DNA of 34,112 nucleotides from a virus. Below the pieces are notes generated by a model that searched no databases, was not told the origin of the DNA, and saw nothing but the letters and a program-made list of their open reading frames with translations. This document shows, piece by piece, positions 14,875-21,719 of this stretch (position 1 is the stretch's first letter; each line of letters starts with the position of its first letter). A program made the position numbers and the translations under genes. The DNA lies in IMG/VR virus record IMGVR_UViG_3300021090_000074, positions 1 through 34,112 of that record; one strand, written 5' to 3'.

Positions 14875-14966
14875 GAGCCTGGCTCAGCAACTGGTGGCCG
14901 TTGGTCGTCTGCTTCGCGGGCCTGGCGCTGGTGATCTACGCCATGGCCCACGTGCCGCTCGTTTAG
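14871..14966 (+). CDS. one-segment small membrane protein (31 aa), possible holin or lysis accessory
   Basis: GTG start in a GTGA overlap with the endolysin stop. VRAWLSNWWPLVVCFAGLAL and then VIYAMAHVPLV is one membrane segment with an N-terminal aromatic belt. Length and position next to the endolysin fit a small pinholin-like or lysis-regulating protein, but single-segment peptides of this size also serve other roles. Its stop overlaps the end of the leftward metallophosphoesterase gene. Confidence 0.6.
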   Translation: MRAWLSNWWPLVVCFAGLALVIYAMAHVPLV

Positions 14967-15862
14967 GACATCCCCCGGGTGACCGTCGCTGCCGCCAGGT
15001 CCATCGTTGTGACCCGCTGATCATGAGGTCCGCCCCACATGTGGCCGCCGTGCCGTCGGTAGTGGATCTTCCAGATCCCGTCGAGCATCTCGACGTAGGC
15101 CGACGTGCTCTGGATCTTCGCCGACTGGTCGCGCCCGGCCTCCCCTTCGAGGGAGAGCATGGACGAGATGTCGCAGAGGACCGGCAGCGGCCTGCCGCCC
15201 AGGGTGAGGAACGAGGCCAGTCTCGGCTCATTGAGATCGAAGTGCATGTGGCCGCACATGAACCCGATCACGTTCGGGTTGTCGCCGACGAGGGTGTTCA
15301 GCTGCGCGGCGGTGATTAGCGCGTCCTGGTCGAGAACGCCGATCTCCTTAGGTGGGTAGTGGTTGCAGATCACCACGGGCCCGTTGAATTCGTTCGTCCG
15401 GGCGTCGACCCAGTTCCAGGTGGCGGTCGTCGGCTGCCACAGGAAATCAGTCGGTGAGAAGTCATCAACGGCGAACGTGATGAACCGGACGCCCTTGACG
15501 TCCCGGTACTCGTTCACGCTCCTGCCGTACTTGGCCTCCCAGGTCGCTCGGGTGTGGACGACCCGGGACCTGATGTCGTGGTTGCCCATCGTCCAGAGGG
15601 ACTGACCGGCCGGGGCTCCGGCGGCGTTCAGCCAGTCGAGGGCGTAATCATCCTCGACGGTGTCGTCTTTCCCGTCGATGATGTCCCCGGTGTGAAGGAA
15701 CAGGTCCACTTCGGGAAGCAGGCCCTCGGCGTAGTCCTGGAGCTGGGTGTCCGATTCGGTGTACGACCACGGCCGGTATCCGAAGTGTGTGTCCGACACA
15801 TGGTTGATCAGGAGAGTGTCGGGCCTGCGGTTGATCAGCGGCCACGCCCGTGTGTGGGTCAT
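14963..15862 (-). CDS. calcineurin-like metallophosphoesterase (299 aa)
   Basis: All motifs of the family are present in order: DTHFG (24-28), GDIID (59-63), GNHD (93-96), NHYP (167-170) and GHMHF (204-208), giving a complete two-metal site. It could hydrolyse phosphodiesters or phosphomonoesters of nucleotides, nucleic acids or cell-surface polymers such as teichoic acid. No signal peptide. It is leftward and coupled by ATGA to the fibre-like gene upstream, so the pair is expressed together; a virion-associated, surface-degrading role is a reasonable inference. Confidence 0.85.
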   Translation of the reverse strand: MTHTRAWPLINRRPDTLLINHVSDTHFGYRPWSYTESDTQLQDYAEGLLPEVDLFLHTGDIIDGKDDTVEDDYALDWLNAAGAPAGQSLWTMGNHDIRSRVVHTRATWEAKYGRSVNEYRDVKGVRFITFAVDDFSPTDFLWQPTTATWNWVDARTNEFNGPVVICNHYPPKEIGVLDQDALITAAQLNTLVGDNPNVIGFMCGHMHFDLNEPRLASFLTLGGRPLPVLCDISSMLSLEGEAGRDQSAKIQSTSAYVEMLDGIWKIHYRRHGGHMWGGPHDQRVTTMDLAAATVTRGMS

Positions 15863-16506: not shown

Positions 16507-16545
16507 GCCGATCAGTATGCCTTCATCGAGACATAATCTGTGCCC
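16507..16545. promoter_or_regulatory. divergent leaderless promoters
   Basis: Minus strand: CATACT (16519-16514), seven bases, ATG 16506. Plus strand: CATAAT (16532-16537), eight bases, ATG 16546. Neither start has a ribosome site. The minus-strand pattern CATACTGATCGGC-ATG is nearly the same as CATACTGTCGGTC-ATG before the gene at 13943. Confidence 0.55.
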
Positions 16546-16764
16546 ATGCTGCTCAACGTGAACGACCCGCTCAGTGAGATCATGACCATGAGCCAGGCGG
16601 CGGCCGAGGTCGGCCGATCCCCCGCCACGATGCGCGACTGGGTGAGAAACGGGGACCTCGTGCCTCTCCGGCTGCCAGGGTCGAGAAGGACCTATACGAC
16701 CGCCCGGGAGGTTCGTGAAGCGGAGTCGAGAATTTGGGCTCGCTTGACAACGCGGGACGGTTGA
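16546..16764 (+). CDS. small HTH protein, MerR/excisionase-like (72 aa)
   Basis: ATG 16546 (GTG 16540 is an alternative). The motif SQAAAEVGRSPATMRDWVRN then GDLVPLRLPGSRRTYTTAREV is a winged HTH of the HTH_17/MerR N-terminal type: helix, recognition helix with RDWVRNG, then the wing with RLPGSRRTY. Such proteins act as excisionases or transcription regulators. No integrase is in the window, so a regulator of the adjacent divergent genes, or of the late genes downstream, is as likely as an excisionase. Confidence 0.72.
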   Translation: MLLNVNDPLSEIMTMSQAAAEVGRSPATMRDWVRNGDLVPLRLPGSRRTYTTAREVREAESRIWARLTTRDG

Positions 16765-16842: not shown

Positions 16843-17490
16843 GTGACGACCCCATCCGGGAATATCCCGGTTCCCGATCCGTCTCTGCTCACGACCGAGC
16901 AACTTCGCCGTGAGCTCTCCGGCCTTCGGGAGGTGATCGAGACACGGCTCGCCGGGATGGATCGGGCTACGGAACTGATCGCGGTGGAGCTGGAGAAGCA
17001 GACGGCGAACGTCGCCGACGCCTTTGAGCATCAGCAGGCGGCCCGGGACAACCAGCTTCAGGCACTGCGGGAATTCCTGCTGAGCCGTATGGAGCTGTCC
17101 CGTGCGGTCAGTGACGAGCGATTCACGGGTGTTTCGACCCAGTTCGCCGAACGGGACACCCGGGGCGAGCAGGAGAAACTGGCGGCACGGATTTCCCTCG
17201 ATGCCGCGCTGGCGGCGGCCAAGGAAGCCGTCGGGGAGCAGAACAAGTCGAACACGGCCGCGATCACCAAATCTGACCTGGCCACCAAGGAGAAGATCGA
17301 TTCTCTGGTGGTGCAGATCAGCACGTCGATCGAATCACTCAACGACAAGATCATCGCCTTGAGCAGCCGCATGGACCGGAGCGAGGGAAAGTCTCAGGGC
17401 GGTGCCACTCTCTGGGCAGCGATCATCGCCTTCGTAGCCGTCGCCCTCCTCGCCGGGGGCCTGATATTGAACGCGAGGTCGGGAGCATGA
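16843..17490 (+). CDS. coiled-coil protein with C-terminal membrane anchor (215 aa)
   Basis: GTG start after GTGGAGATCAT. Residues about 18-180 are coiled coil (LTTEQLRRELSGLREVIETR, LIAVELEKQTANVADAFEHQ, LAARISLDAALAAAKEAV); residues 192-210 are a membrane segment WAAIIAFVAVALLAGGLIL followed by a short tail. This layout is common in actinophages near lysis genes and is sometimes annotated as holin or minor tail protein. A holin or membrane-tethered lysis regulator fits the context; the alternative is a virion-associated protein. Coupled by ATGA to the ParB-like gene. Confidence 0.62.
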   Translation: MTTPSGNIPVPDPSLLTTEQLRRELSGLREVIETRLAGMDRATELIAVELEKQTANVADAFEHQQAARDNQLQALREFLLSRMELSRAVSDERFTGVSTQFAERDTRGEQEKLAARISLDAALAAAKEAVGEQNKSNTAAITKSDLATKEKIDSLVVQISTSIESLNDKIIALSSRMDRSEGKSQGGATLWAAIIAFVAVALLAGGLILNARSGA

Positions 17491-18038
17491 GCGTTACCTG
17501 GCTCGAGACCCGCGAAGTGCCGGTCGGCGAGCTGACCAAGTTCCCCGGCAACGCCAAGCGCGGCGACGTCAAGGCCATCCGGGAGTCCATCCGGAAGACC
17601 GGGCAGTACCGGGCGATCGTCGTTCGCCGGACGCACGTCAACGACGGCGGATTGATCATCCTCGCCGGTAATCACACGTACGAAGCGGTTGTCGCCGAGC
17701 GAATGCCCACGATCCGTTGCGAGATCCTCGAATGCACCGACGCCGAGGCCCGGCGGATCAATCTCGCCGACAACCGGCTCGCCGAACTCGGCGGATACGA
17801 CGATGATGATCTGGCCACCCTGCTCGCCGGTTTGAACGGGGACTTCGACGGCACCGGCTGGAGCTATGAGGACATGGATCGCCTCACCGACCCGGAGGCA
17901 CCCGACGAGGGAGACGCCCCGGTGGATGAGCTTCCGACCGTGTGGGGTGTAGTGATCGAATGTGAGGACGAGGATCAGCAGGTCACCATGCTCCGCCGTC
18001 TCGACGGCGAGGGCTTCAAGGTCAGGGCGCTGATGTGA
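17487..18038 (+). CDS. ParB/Srx-fold protein (ParB-like nuclease domain), 183 aa
   Basis: Residues 8-100 carry the ParB N-terminal fold: REVPVGELTKFPGNAKRG, then AIRESIRKTGQYRAIVVR, the signature loop LAGNHTYEAVVAERMP (60-74, in place of the classical GERRLRA) and CTDAEARRINLADNRLAEL. The C-terminal part is acidic. No DNA-binding HTH follows, so it is not a partition protein; phage ParB-domain proteins of this kind occur next to DNA methylases and other modification enzymes. It is coupled by ATGA and GTGA to the genes before and after. The domain may act as a nucleotide-dependent switch or nuclease; a part in DNA modification is inferred from neighbours. Confidence 0.82.
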   Translation: MSVTWLETREVPVGELTKFPGNAKRGDVKAIRESIRKTGQYRAIVVRRTHVNDGGLIILAGNHTYEAVVAERMPTIRCEILECTDAEARRINLADNRLAELGGYDDDDLATLLAGLNGDFDGTGWSYEDMDRLTDPEAPDEGDAPVDELPTVWGVVIECEDEDQQVTMLRRLDGEGFKVRALM

Positions 18039-19198
18039 AGGCCGCCATCGAGGTGTCCACGCCGATCGCCAGGTCCCCCCGCGTTCTTCAGGTCGGGTCG
18101 ATGTTCGACGTCCCGATGGAGGACCGGGCCGCTCTCAACTGGGACGCCGATCTTCCGATCGAGGATCAGGACTGGCACATCGGGATGATCATCGGTCCTT
18201 CGGGTTCTGGGAAGACCACGATTGCCCGGCACTTCTGGCCCGAGCAGATGGCCGCGACCCACCACTGGACGCCGGACGCGGCTCTGATCGACGATTTCCC
18301 CTCGACGCTGGGGATCAAGGACGTCGTCGGGTTGCTCAACTCCGTCGGGCTCGCCTCACCCCCCGCGTGGCTCCGTCCGTTCCGGACACTGTCGAATGGC
18401 GAGGCGTTCCGGGCCGATGTCGCCAGGACCCTCGCCGAGACCGATTCGAACGACGTGACGGTGATCGACGAGTTCACGTCAGTGGTCGACCGGCAGGTGG
18501 CGCAGATCGCCAGCCATACCGTCCAGAAGACGGTCAGGCGGCAGGACCGGCAGCTGATCGCGGTGACCTGTCATTACGACATCGTCGACTGGCTCCAGCC
18601 GGACTGGATCTATGACGTGGCCGCCGGATCCTTCGCCTGGAGGTCGGTTCAACCCCACCCTTCAGTGGAGGTCAGGATCCACAAGATTCATTACTCCGCA
18701 TGGAAGTACTTCCGGCGTCATCACTATCTGAGCAGTGAGATCAACAAGTCAGCGAGATGTTTCGGTGCGTTCATCGGCGATGATCTCGTGGCGTTCACCT
18801 CGTATCTTCACTTTCCACACGCCAAGACGAAGAATGTGAAGATGGCTCACCGGGTGGTCGTTTTGCCCGACTATCAAGGCCTCGGCATCGGTGGCAGGCT
18901 CGCCGACTGGCAAGGTGAGTATCTGCACCAGCGAGGGTATCGGTACCACTTCGTCACGAGTCACCCGGCTCTGATCCGATACCTGGCGGGGTCCCCTCGC
19001 TGGCGGCTGATCCAAAAGTCGACCCGGAGATCCCTGGCCAACACCTCGACTGATGTGGGTCTCAGAAAGAGAGCTCTCGACCCGAGGAGCCTCGGGAACC
19101 GATGTTTCTTCTACGCCCCCGAGAGTCATGCCGCTCCGGTAGCTGGAGTACCGGCTTCCCGGAGCGGCACCGATGCTCTAGAGGAACACGTCGTGTGA
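18035..19198 (+). CDS. ABC-type ATPase fused to a GNAT acetyltransferase (387 aa)
   Basis: GTG start in a GTGA overlap. Residues 45-205 are an ATP-binding cassette: Walker A GPSGSGKT (54-61), signature LSNGE (119-123), Walker B VTVIDE (141-146) and H-loop H180, without membrane segments. Residues 212-330 are a GNAT domain: a W-x2-F-x3-HYL entry (IHYSAWKYFRRHHYLS), FGAFIGDDLVAFTSYL, and the acetyl-CoA loop VVVLPDYQGLGIGGRL, with VTSHPAL after it. The GNAT half resembles Mom-like enzymes by eye. The fusion recalls TmcA, in which an ATPase drives GNAT acetylation of cytidine. Substrate unknown; nucleic-acid modification is inferred. The 3' end overlaps the ASCH gene by 21 bases. Confidence 0.8.
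   Translation: MKAAIEVSTPIARSPRVLQVGSMFDVPMEDRAALNWDADLPIEDQDWHIGMIIGPSGSGKTTIARHFWPEQMAATHHWTPDAALIDDFPSTLGIKDVVGLLNSVGLASPPAWLRPFRTLSNGEAFRADVARTLAETDSNDVTVIDEFTSVVDRQVAQIASHTVQKTVRRQDRQLIAVTCHYDIVDWLQPDWIYDVAAGSFAWRSVQPHPSVEVRIHKIHYSAWKYFRRHHYLSSEINKSARCFGAFIGDDLVAFTSYLHFPHAKTKNVKMAHRVVVLPDYQGLGIGGRLADWQGEYLHQRGYRYHFVTSHPALIRYLAGSPRWRLIQKSTRRSLANTSTDVGLRKRALDPRSLGNRCFFYAPESHAAPVAGVPASRSGTDALEEHVV
19130..19168. terminator. hairpin at the convergent gene ends
   Basis: GCCGCTCCGG (19130-19139) and CCGGAGCGGC (19159-19168) pair perfectly; inside, CCGGTA and TACCGG offer an alternative stem. It lies within the last codons of the ABC-GNAT gene and just beyond the ASCH stop, so it could end transcription from both sides. 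No T-run. Confidence 0.5.
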
Positions 19199-19591
19199 TG
19201 CGTGATCCTCCAGGATCATGCGCCACGTTTCGGTGAACTCCCGGAGGCTCAGCTTGCCGATCCAGGGCATGGGCTTGTCGAGGATGGTCAGGTTGGTGCC
19301 GAGCAGCCAGTGCCACTGGCCGGATTCCGCCCATTCTGAGTCGGAGTCTTGGACGACGTCGACCAGGTCGACCGACCCGAGGATCACGCCGCGAGGCATC
19401 GGGTTCGGGAGCTCGATCCTCATGTCGGCCTCGGCGGACTCGACTCCGGCATCGTCGATCGTCTTCCCGGCATGGATCACCAGCTCTCCCCGGTAGCCGC
19501 CCGCAGGCCGCCAGGATCGGTTCTCGACGTTCTTGCCTCCGTGCATGATCAGCCAGGCCCAAGGCTGCTGGACGGTCAGGATCTTCGTCAC
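19178..19591 (-). CDS. ASCH-domain protein (137 aa)
   Basis: GTG at 19591 after GAAGGGAACCGGA; the open frame continues upstream but the promoter box at 19627-19620 and the ribosome site fix this start. The ASCH fold is shown by TVQQPWAWLIMHGGKNVENR and SWRPAGGYRGELVIHAGK, that is QPW, GxKxxExR and YRGxxxIHAG motifs, with VILGSVDLVDVV later. ASCH proteins bind RNA or modified bases, and E. coli YqfB is an N4-acetylcytidine amidohydrolase. Leftward, overlapping the ABC-GNAT gene tail to tail, and divergent from the terminase operon, it is expressed separately. It may read or remove a modification; substrate unknown. Confidence 0.85.
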   Translation of the reverse strand: MTKILTVQQPWAWLIMHGGKNVENRSWRPAGGYRGELVIHAGKTIDDAGVESAEADMRIELPNPMPRGVILGSVDLVDVVQDSDSEWAESGQWHWLLGTNLTILDKPMPWIGKLSLREFTETWRMILEDHASHDVFL

Positions 19592-19619
19592 TCCGGTTCC
19601 CTTCGCTCGGTGTCTCTCG

Positions 19620-19627
19620 ATTATACA
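19620..19627. promoter_or_regulatory. bidirectional promoter box between ASCH and terminase genes
   Basis: On the minus strand TGTATAAT is a perfect extended -10, giving a short leader before GTG 19591. On the plus strand the same bases read TTATACA, a fair -10 for the terminase operon, 18 bases before GTG 19646. Sharing one site makes expression of the ASCH gene and of the packaging/head operon mutually exclusive or coordinated. Confidence 0.6.
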
Positions 19628-19645
19628 GCATGGGAGGTGTGCCCC

Positions 19646-20200
19646 GTGGGACGTAACGGCAAGGGAAGAACCGGCCGCCGGGAGCCTTATCAGGTCGACC
19701 GCGACAACAAGGCCGTCGAGCTCCGCCGCCGTCACCTGACGTACCAGCAGATCGCCGACGAACTCGGCATGGGCAACAAGACGACCGCGTACCTGGCCGT
19801 CAAGCGCGGTCTCGCCGACTCGGTTCAGGAGAGCAACGACGAGGTCAGGCAGCAGGAGGCCGATCGTCTCGACGAGCTGGCCCGCCGGGCACTCCGGGTG
19901 ATCGTCACCCCGCACTACAAGGTGTCCGGGCGGTTCGTCGTCAAGGACCCGCAGACCGGCAAGCCGCTGATCGACGACCAGCCGGTCCTCAACGGGATCA
20001 ACACCCTGCTCAAGATTATGGAACGTCGTGCCGAGCTCCTCGGGCTGAACGCGGTCCTCAAGGTCGAGGTCATCACGACCGGCATGATCGACAACGAGAT
20101 CGCCAGGCTCTCCACTGAGCTCGCCACCCGGGTCAGGAAGAACGGACAGGAGATGCCCGAGATCCTGGCCGGTGAGATCGTCGAAGATGATCGAACCTAG
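19646..20200 (+). CDS. terminase small subunit-like HTH protein (184 aa)
   Basis: GTG start at 19646 after GGGAGGTG. The N-terminus is basic (VGRNGKGRTGRREPYQVDRD) and leads to an HTH, AVELRRRHLTYQQIADELGM then TAYLAVKRGLADSV. The rest is helical (EADRLDELARRALRVIV; LNGINTLLKIMERRAELLGL), suited to ring oligomerisation. Position directly before the large terminase supports the small-subunit assignment: it should recognise the packaging site and load DNA into the motor. It overlaps the next gene by 14 bases. Confidence 0.75.
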   Translation: MGRNGKGRTGRREPYQVDRDNKAVELRRRHLTYQQIADELGMGNKTTAYLAVKRGLADSVQESNDEVRQQEADRLDELARRALRVIVTPHYKVSGRFVVKDPQTGKPLIDDQPVLNGINTLLKIMERRAELLGLNAVLKVEVITTGMIDNEIARLSTELATRVRKNGQEMPEILAGEIVEDDRT

Positions 20201-21719
20201 CTCTCTCGCCGACGTCAAGCTCGCCAAGCTGGAACGGCTCCGGCTTCTCCGGGAAGAGCTCGATCGGATGGACCTCGAAGAGGCCCGCAGCGAGCCCGGC
20301 TGGGAGTCCCCCGGATCCCTGGCGCAGATGCTCGATCCGACGATCATTCAGACCCCCGCGCTGGAGTTGATCGATCAGGAGCTGATGAACCTGGCCGACA
20401 ATCCGGACATCGACCGGTTGATGATCTTCATGCCCCCGCAGGAGGGAAAGTCCGAAAGGATCTCTCACCGGCTCCCCGAGTGGCTGTTGAAGTTCAATCC
20501 CGATCTTCGTATCGCGATCGTCTCCTACGCCGACGAGATGGCTCGTCGCTGGGGGTCCGACATTAAGCTCGACGCCGAGACCTTCGACGGGTCCGACGGC
20601 GGCGTGAATCTCGGCATCACCCTTCGCGAGGACAGCAAGGCCGCCGGGCGCTGGCAGATCAAGGGCCATAAAGGCGGAGTGTATTGTACTGGTGTCGGAG
20701 GGTCACTAACCGGCAAACCTGTCGACTGGCTCATTGTCGATGACCCAATCAAAGATCTCGAAGCGGCGCAGTCTTCGAAGTACCGGGAGCGTGCCAAACG
20801 GTTCTGGCGCGGTGTCGCGATTCCCCGTCTCGGGCCCGGCTCCAAATGCGTGATCGTTCAGACCCGCTGGGACGAGGACGATCTCTCGGGCTGGCTCCAG
20901 ACCGAGCACCCGGGCCGCTGGCGGATCATCTCGATCCCCGCCATCTGTGAGTCCGAGGACGACCTACTGGGGAGGTCCATCGGGCAGCCGATGATCTCGG
21001 CTCGTGGCGACCGCGACTGGGACGCGATCAAGAAGGACGTCGGCGAATACGTCTGGGCCGCTCTCTATCAGCAACGCCCGGCACCCGCTGCCGGTGGGAT
21101 CTTCAAGAAAACCTGGTGGCGAGAGTTCGACTCGCCACGCTGGATCGAACTCCCGGACGGGACTTGTGTTGTACCGGGAGCCGATGAGGTCGTCTGCTCC
21201 TGGGACATGTCCTTCAAAGACGAGGACGATTCAGACTACGTCTGTGGTCAGGTCTGGGCTCGATTCGGGCTTCAGGTCTACCTCCTCGACCAGATGCACG
21301 ATCGCATGACGTTCGTCGAGACCCGGCAGGCGGTCCGGCAGCTGGCCGCCAAGTGGCCGGAGGCCACCGCCAAGTACGTCGAGGACAAGGCGAACGGAAC
21401 GGCGGTCATCAACTCCCTGTCGCTGACCGTGTCCGGGCTGATCCCGATCGAGCCCGACGGGAACAAGATCAGTCGGGCCCGCGCCGTATCCCCGTTCGTC
21501 GAGGCCGGTCAGGTGTACCTCCCGGCCCCCGAGCTCCGCCCCTGGGTCGGCGGATTCATCGACGAGCACGCCTTGTTCCCGAACGCCGTCCACGACGACC
21601 GGGTGGACACGATGTCGCAGGCTCTGAACCGGCTCCTGCTCAACCCGATCCTGACGAATGAGATCCGGGGTGAGGAGGACTTCGATGATTTCGTCGAGAA
21701 GCAGATCAGCCCCTACTAG
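20187..21719 (+). CDS. terminase large subunit (510 aa)
   Basis: ATG 20187 is used; GTG 20172 would add five residues. ATPase part: an atypical P-loop MPPQEGKS (82-89), Walker B WLIVDDP (181-187), and coupling motif IVQTRW (223-228). Nuclease part with RNase H fold: CSWDMSFKDEDDSDY with Asp340, VEDKANG with Glu399/Asp400, and HDDRVD (469-474), the three acidic positions for two metals. It pumps DNA into the prohead and cuts it. Length and motifs are normal for the family. It lies between the small subunit and portal genes as usual. Confidence 0.93.
   Translation: MIEPSSLADVKLAKLERLRLLREELDRMDLEEARSEPGWESPGSLAQMLDPTIIQTPALELIDQELMNLADNPDIDRLMIFMPPQEGKSERISHRLPEWLLKFNPDLRIAIVSYADEMARRWGSDIKLDAETFDGSDGGVNLGITLREDSKAAGRWQIKGHKGGVYCTGVGGSLTGKPVDWLIVDDPIKDLEAAQSSKYRERAKRFWRGVAIPRLGPGSKCVIVQTRWDEDDLSGWLQTEHPGRWRIISIPAICESEDDLLGRSIGQPMISARGDRDWDAIKKDVGEYVWAALYQQRPAPAAGGIFKKTWWREFDSPRWIELPDGTCVVPGADEVVCSWDMSFKDEDDSDYVCGQVWARFGLQVYLLDQMHDRMTFVETRQAVRQLAAKWPEATAKYVEDKANGTAVINSLSLTVSGLIPIEPDGNKISRARAVSPFVEAGQVYLPAPELRPWVGGFIDEHALFPNAVHDDRVDTMSQALNRLLLNPILTNEIRGEEDFDDFVEKQISPY

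Follow-up and report, generated by a model that had tools for sequence, protein, structure and literature searches.

Proteins that couple an ABC ATPase to a GNAT domain have already been predicted to place an acyl group on a DNA base, with phage pT24 given as an example (Iyer et al., 2013, as cited in PMC7824862). Mom of phage Mu is another DNA modifier of the GNAT superfamily, although it has no ABC domain. An ATPase and a GNAT domain are also joined in TmcA, the tRNA(Met) cytidine acetyltransferase; its ATPase is not of the ABC class, and we know of no ParB partner of TmcA. Finally, phages encode fusions of a ParB domain with an N6/N4 DNA methyltransferase (PHROG 498).

The window analyzed here, by which we mean the whole stretch of DNA under study, is a virus record of 34,112 bases that encodes an ABC ATPase-GNAT fusion immediately downstream of a ParB-like gene (Table 1). 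The two open reading frames overlap by 4 nucleotides (ATGTGA, at the ParB stop). Motifs recognized in the ABC domain include Walker A (GPSGSGKT, residues 54-61), the signature LSNGE (119-123), Walker B (VTVIDE, 141-146), a D-loop (152) and the H-loop histidine (180); a classical Q-loop was not identified in the ABC domain of the window protein. The GNAT domain carries an HY motif (230-231), Arg273 and the acyl-CoA loop YQGLGIGG (approximately residues 280-287, with Q281-G286). In Pfam, PF00583 matched residues 231-304 with 32.7 bits (cut-off 20.7), and ABC_tran scored 21.7 bits, below its cut-off of 25. The AlphaFold model of the fusion protein has a mean pLDDT of 87 and a pTM of 0.78. Foldseek matched this model to ABC nucleotide-binding domains (E 3e-8), and the matches listed for the whole model were all to ABC domains; past residue 212, the order of strands and helices in the model is that of a GNAT. 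PHROG 11143 covers the protein nearly full length with an E of 1e-103, a match that lies beyond chance for that reason.

Table 1. Coordinates of the ParB-like/ABC-GNAT locus and its neighbors in the window.
Feature	Position	Strand	Details
Metallophosphoesterase-like ORF	14963-15862	-	upstream of the ParB/ABC-GNAT pair; PHROG 1649, E 7e-6
MerR/excisionase-like HTH gene	16540-16764		directly upstream of the ParB gene, with the next entry
Coiled-coil-like protein	16843-17490		membrane-like stretch at C-terminus
ParB-like protein	17487..18038	+	183 aa; ParB N-domain spanning roughly residues 1-100, then a helical linker and the conserved tail listed below
Conserved C-terminal 'mini' tail	17922..18035	+	about 38 aa, VDELPTVWGVVIECEDEDQQVTMLRRLDGEGFKVRALM; proposed to dock ABC-GNAT
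ABC ATPase-GNAT fusion	18035..19198	+	GTG start, 387 aa; ORF confirmed
ABC ATPase domain	18035..18646	+	residues 1-204; Foldseek to ABC nucleotide-binding domains, invariant motifs (200 relatives)
GNAT acyltransferase domain	18668..19024	+	residues 212-330; PF00583, model secondary structure, conservation
ASCH-domain protein	19178..19591	-	137 aa, GTG start, convergent with ABC-GNAT; PF04266, 26.0 bits (cut-off 21.2)
Putative small-terminase/HTH protein	19349..20200	+	PHROG 645; true start probably downstream of 19591
Terminase large subunit	20172..21719	+	PF17289, 54.7 bits; PHROG 38, E 4e-100

Conservation was assessed in 200 non-redundant relatives that are at most 90% identical to each other. 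In the ABC part, the Walker A Gly and Lys, LSxG, the Walker B Asp-Glu, the D-loop Asp and the H-loop His were conserved in 100% of these sequences, and so were Tyr231, Arg273, Pro278 and Gly282 in the GNAT part, where His230 reached 98.5%. The invariance of the ABC and GNAT motifs indicates that both activities are under strong selection. A reading of the locus made from its sequence only (hereafter the sequence-only reading) had described an intact soluble ABC ATPase joined to a GNAT domain, with a ParB-like gene adjoining. The open reading frame, the motifs, the GNAT Pfam match and the AlphaFold and Foldseek results all agree with this description, and the structure prediction that it had proposed as a check returned an ABC fold together with the GNAT order of strands and helices.

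The window protein shares with the predicted pT24 family both the domain pair and the predicted function: it couples an ABC ATPase to a GNAT domain in one protein, and its homologue in pT24 is 33% identical (E 8e-53). Given this homologue, the main inference of the sequence-only reading amounts to the prediction already in print (PMC7824862), and the core idea of ABC-GNAT as a DNA-base acyl modifier is not new. By contrast, pT24 has neither ParB nor the C-terminal tail next to its ABC-GNAT gene, whereas the window has both. The kinships to TmcA and Mom that had been considered from sequence were not upheld. No TmcA or GNAT_acetyltr_2 Pfam family matched at E<=1, and hhalign aligned only 22 columns to TmcA, a short similarity around the acyl-CoA loop. 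Likewise, PF25680, which gives 253 bits with Mu Mom and 190 bits with P. gingivalis Mom, did not match the window protein at E<=1, and the hhalign probability for Mom was 0.9%, compared with 81% for RimI, the nearest of three profiles tested. The HYS motif of Mom, placed between the first helix and the second strand of the GNAT fold, lined up with the window HY in a local hhalign match that is not significant; the window GNAT keeps the canonical acyl-CoA loop.

Homologues were found in 63 annotated phage records, whose hosts include Gordonia, Aeromonas, Streptococcus, Lactococcus, Leptospira, Porphyromonas and Pseudoalteromonas, in at least 596 confirmed candidate stretches of IMG/VR, and in 318 confirmed bacterial genome contigs, the best 80 of which include many from Planctomycetota and Actinomycetota. 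Among the matches listed, the closest relative is from Streptomyces sp. NRRL S-350 (61%). The ParB/ABC-GNAT pair usually neighbors terminase genes; at many loci the small and large terminase genes follow it closely, and the PHROG 645 family is found downstream of ABC-GNAT at other loci as well. Gene calls in unannotated contigs were mechanical. Pure chance or mis-assembly was rejected as an explanation because almost 200 non-redundant loci show this gene order.

The ParB-like protein scored 20.9 bits against PF02195, below the Pfam cut-off of 26.3, and matched PHROG 723 (E 2e-39) as well as the N-terminal part of PHROG 498, 'DNA methyltransferase' (E 5e-23). Its AlphaFold model (pLDDT 88) resembled ParB CTP-binding domains (best 7bm8, E 7e-9) and also sulfiredoxin in Foldseek, by which the ParB/Srx N-terminal CTP-binding fold is present. 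Whereas ParB partition proteins have a known dimerization domain at the C-terminus, the window protein has the ABC-GNAT tail there instead. When the upstream ParB-like proteins were aligned, the ParB domain was poorly conserved, and the C-terminal 38 or so residues were common to them (consensus ...QYGVIVECEDEAEQEELLERLTEEGYKCRAL), with a pattern that suggests strand-helix-strand. The sequence-only reading had assigned the role of targeting partner to the ParB-fold protein; its constancy as a neighbor and the exchanges described below speak for that role, but the conserved partner element is the C-terminal tail more than the ParB domain. The tail corresponds to PHROG 28816, a family of unknown function. 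Its standalone 42-aa form had no match in Pfam or NCBIfam, and what a PDB profile search with the tail returned, repeat proteins (PPR, designed proteins) or otherwise weak matches, was judged to be chance.

Among 188 non-redundant ABC-GNAT loci with upstream DNA, 177 have the tail, either at the end of a ParB ORF immediately or closely upstream (165 loci) or without ParB (12 loci); three of the remaining loci have ParB with no recognizable tail, and eight have neither. This survey of the neighbors of homologues, also suggested from sequence at the outset, thus found ParB plus tail upstream at most loci, with terminase genes often next. A standalone tail of 42-63 aa is encoded ahead of ABC-GNAT in P. 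gingivalis phages and at L038, L069, L070 and L080, and a single 611-aa ORF comprises ParB, tail, ABC and GNAT at L119 (Gemmataceae). The tail was matched 35 times in 31 carrier genomes, each time near an ABC-GNAT, which in one case is a decayed copy. A set of 294 Planctomycetota genomes, drawn regardless of the ABC-GNAT system, gave 16 tail matches: 15 of them directly precede the 15 strong ABC-GNAT loci, and the other one is weak (E 2e-4). The tail is nearly exclusive to ABC-GNAT loci. Neither ParB nor a recognizable tail accompanies the ABC-GNAT genes of the large myophages PX29, vB_VmeM-32 and pT24, a single tail match in PX29 (E 0.03) being judged chance, and a recognizable tail was not found at L056 and L057.

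This genomic linkage leads us to propose, with moderate confidence, that the tail docks the ABC-GNAT protein. Covariation between the two was examined in 222 distinct pairs (approximately 164 effective), at positions outside the overlapping reading frames, and is only suggestive. Couplings between tail and ABC-GNAT exceed those of shuffled pairs, though they are inflated by related sequences; four of the top 20 fall in the N-terminal 39 residues of the enzyme, compared with 0-3 of 20 in 24 shuffles, a count that kinship again inflates.

Two further observations concern the neighbors of such genes. A decayed system in Nonomuraea (L496, G005:C64:134500-140299) has an interrupted ParB, an intact tail and an ABC remnant. 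A second ABC-GNAT family occurs on Planctomycetota contigs (L497:304-1758, minus strand; L498:2606-3798, plus strand), with LSEGQ in the ABC and WHYRGH in the GNAT part and family HMM matches of E 1e-35 to 1e-28; no convincing tail or ParB adjoins its members at L497 and L498, and the one at L498 adjoins a terminase-like ORF.

Related phages differ in what follows the ParB domain or occupies the ABC-GNAT site. In S. pyogenes, the terminase-side flanks of prophage Javan523 and prophages Javan486/447 are 95.7-95.9% identical in DNA (95.7% with Javan486), and Javan523 and Javan486 have the ParB start in common (433 bp at 97.2%). After the ParB domain, Javan523 continues with tail, ABC and GNAT, whereas in Javan486 the same ORF runs on into an N6_N4_Mtase domain (PF01555, E 2e-24); Javan447 has the same methyltransferase in two pieces. 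The phage ParB-methyltransferase fusions (PHROG 498; Javan486) therefore share with the ABC-GNAT systems the same ParB domain (97% DNA identity in the Javan prophages) and the same position, but carry a methyltransferase fused to ParB in place of tail and ABC-GNAT. This is the strongest of the swaps because the exchange falls inside the ParB gene. In P. gingivalis, phage 007a encodes a 42-aa mini tail, ABC-GNAT and a formyltransferase, and its sister phage 012a has a Mom protein (PF25680, E 6e-56) exactly at the ABC-GNAT site, with flanks 89-93% identical; against a reading in terms of DNA, P. gingivalis phages could have a general cargo site at their right end, which would also explain this swap. 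In Microbacterium phage Appa, a ParB-like gene overlaps Mom (L176:4469-5621), so that the DNA modifiers accompanied by ParB are of at least three kinds.

Taken together, these three cases indicate that ABC-GNAT stands in for known modifiers of DNA and that the same kind of domain directs it. Since the swaps are with a DNA methyltransferase and with Mom, they argue strongly for DNA, rather than RNA or protein, as the probable substrate. The sequence-only reading had proposed acyl transfer on nucleic acid in general; the swaps support it and point to DNA. Comparison with hundreds of relatives suggests that the enzyme puts a small chemical group on the DNA of the phage itself, like Mom proteins and DNA methyltransferases but by another chemistry. 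Two side observations concern Mom: the ParB-like protein of Appa ends in a Cys-containing CPSCHYQW in place of the ABC-GNAT tail of other ParBs, which recalls Mu Com and may be a tail specific to its partner, and Aeromonas phage PX29 (NC_023688.1) has ABC-GNAT and Mom in one genome.

On this comparative evidence, we consider it likely that the ParB-like and ABC-GNAT proteins act together as a two-component system for the acyl modification of DNA bases, by which the phage genome is marked ahead of packaging, probably as a protection from host restriction. In this model the ParB N-domain would recognize or load on DNA, and the tail of approximately 38 aa would dock the ABC-GNAT enzyme. The ABC domain would clamp and distort the DNA, probably in the form of an ATP-closed dimer, and so expose a base; such a grip by an ATP-bound dimer is suggested by ABC ATPases in general. 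The GNAT domain would then move an acyl group from acyl-CoA to an exocyclic amine of the exposed base. Protection from restriction, ATP-driven clamping and the choice of base and acyl group are all steps that we infer. Besides the swaps, the ParB and tail neighbors, the usual terminase neighborhood, the donor-type genes described below and the published prediction speak for this system; the closer profile match to RimI than to Mom, the myophages with neither ParB nor a recognizable tail, and the lack of donor-making genes in the window weigh against it.

Genes downstream of ABC-GNAT hint at the donors. In phage Jace, ABC-GNAT is followed by an aspartate 1-decarboxylase (PanD; PF02261, E 2e-33) and a CoA-transferase III homologue (PF02515, E 2e-8) that is short (approximately 225 aa) and of putative activity, and an ASCH protein is encoded nearby. 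The PanD and CoA-transferase pair is present at seven non-redundant loci in scattered lineages, which requires 6-7 changes on the ABC-GNAT tree; the pair was therefore repeatedly gained or lost alongside ABC-GNAT. The PanD proteins of these loci keep a Y-x-G-S stretch, as expected for PanD self-processing. PanD matches occur in only 15 of 50,697 phage records, mostly unannotated contigs that are maybe host DNA. A formyltransferase gene (PF00551) is located 3' of ABC-GNAT in one clade (one change on the tree), the ends of the two genes often overlapping. PanD, CoA-transferase and formyltransferase genes were not found within the window, whose donor would therefore be a host acyl-CoA, perhaps acetyl-CoA. 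ASCH genes lie near 29 of the 184 ABC-GNAT loci with enough downstream DNA, including the window, whose ASCH gene the sequence-only reading had missed, with 20 changes on the tree. The E. coli ASCH protein YqfB hydrolyses N4-acylcytosines (PMC6972931); it has the ASCH domain in common with the window gene, whose product, however, seems to belong to another ASCH subfamily. From these neighbors we infer that acyl-CoA is the donor, that the acyl group differs by lineage, and that the ASCH proteins, including that of the window, probably read or remove the acyl mark.

A more specific scheme is possible, and we offer it tentatively. In lineages with PanD and the CoA-transferase, phage-made beta-alanine might be converted to beta-alanyl-CoA, from which the GNAT would transfer beta-alanine to a base in DNA; where the clade has the formyltransferase, this enzyme might then N-formylate the group so transferred at its free amine. 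The tail might plug any of several ParB targeting domains into ABC-GNAT, whose N-terminal beta-alpha unit it would possibly complete, and the family would in this way make hypermodified bases with aminoacyl-type groups. Fmt, for comparison, formylates Met-tRNA. Among the papers searched, none links aspartate decarboxylase, GNAT and phage DNA modification. If the scheme is true, both the beta-alanylation of DNA and bases with formyl-aminoacyl groups would be new to DNA chemistry; the PanD/CoA-transferase and formyltransferase genes turn the old prediction of an 'uncharacterized acyl modification' into concrete candidate groups.

Other roles for the ABC-GNAT protein were weighed against the same evidence. 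Its GNAT domain could acylate a protein of the host or of the phage, in the way that phage Rac acts on RNA polymerase, with the ABC part as a regulatory or substrate-remodelling motor. The preference of the GNAT profile for RimI fits this role, and RNA polymerase is a known target of phage GNATs (PMC7824862); however, the alternation with a DNA methyltransferase after one and the same ParB domain, the exchange with Mom, the constant ParB partner and the recurring ASCH genes point to nucleic acid instead, and we regard modification of a protein as improbable. An RNA acyltransferase of the TmcA kind, which would use ATP to acylate tRNA or other RNA during infection, seems to us very unlikely. 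TmcA does pair an ATPase with a GNAT domain that can be aligned around the acyl-CoA loop, but that ATPase is non-ABC and no TmcA Pfam family matched. Although some ASCH enzymes act on acylated cytidine (PMC6972931), the swap partners of ABC-GNAT are DNA modifiers.

The same exchanges also speak against a defence or toxin module, in which a prophage ABC-GNAT would acylate tRNA or protein and thereby stop competing phages. Many relatives are on cellular contigs that are at least partly prophages, and in PADLOC the ABC part weakly matched mad3 (E 2e-10), which we put down to ABC similarity as such. In many phages, however, the gene is just upstream of the terminase genes and not in accessory defence spots, and a toxin-antitoxin layout was not seen; we give such a module an equally slim chance. 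The persistent terminase neighborhood would also suit an accessory of packaging or DNA segregation, in which ParB and ABC act on DNA ends or concatemers for the terminase and the GNAT is regulatory. Yet DNA methyltransferases and Mom take the same position in related phages, the acyl-CoA and HY motifs are near-invariant, and donor-making genes accompany ABC-GNAT, which makes this the least probable of the roles considered.

If ABC-GNAT does acylate DNA bases, as we favor, it would represent a further and widespread way of marking DNA in phages and some bacteria, besides methyltransferases and Mom, and one in which a ParB-type domain directs ATP-assisted base acylation. With methyltransferase, Mom and ABC-GNAT interchanged behind or beside it, the ParB domain would be a general aiming device for DNA modification. 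Carriers include isolated phages (Jace, NHagos, which has the formyltransferase, and P335) and prophages of cultured strains.

In Streptococcus and Lactococcus phages, the junction of ABC and GNAT consists of two overlapping frames with a -1 offset (L088:7535-7710, L085:7541-7710, L179:5123-5290), both of which are open for approximately 100 nt. The stretch CAGGTTTTTC-AT-CCCCCACGAAG, common to the three junctions, suggests programmed -1 ribosomal frameshifting, which would yield an ABC-only and an ABC-GNAT form.
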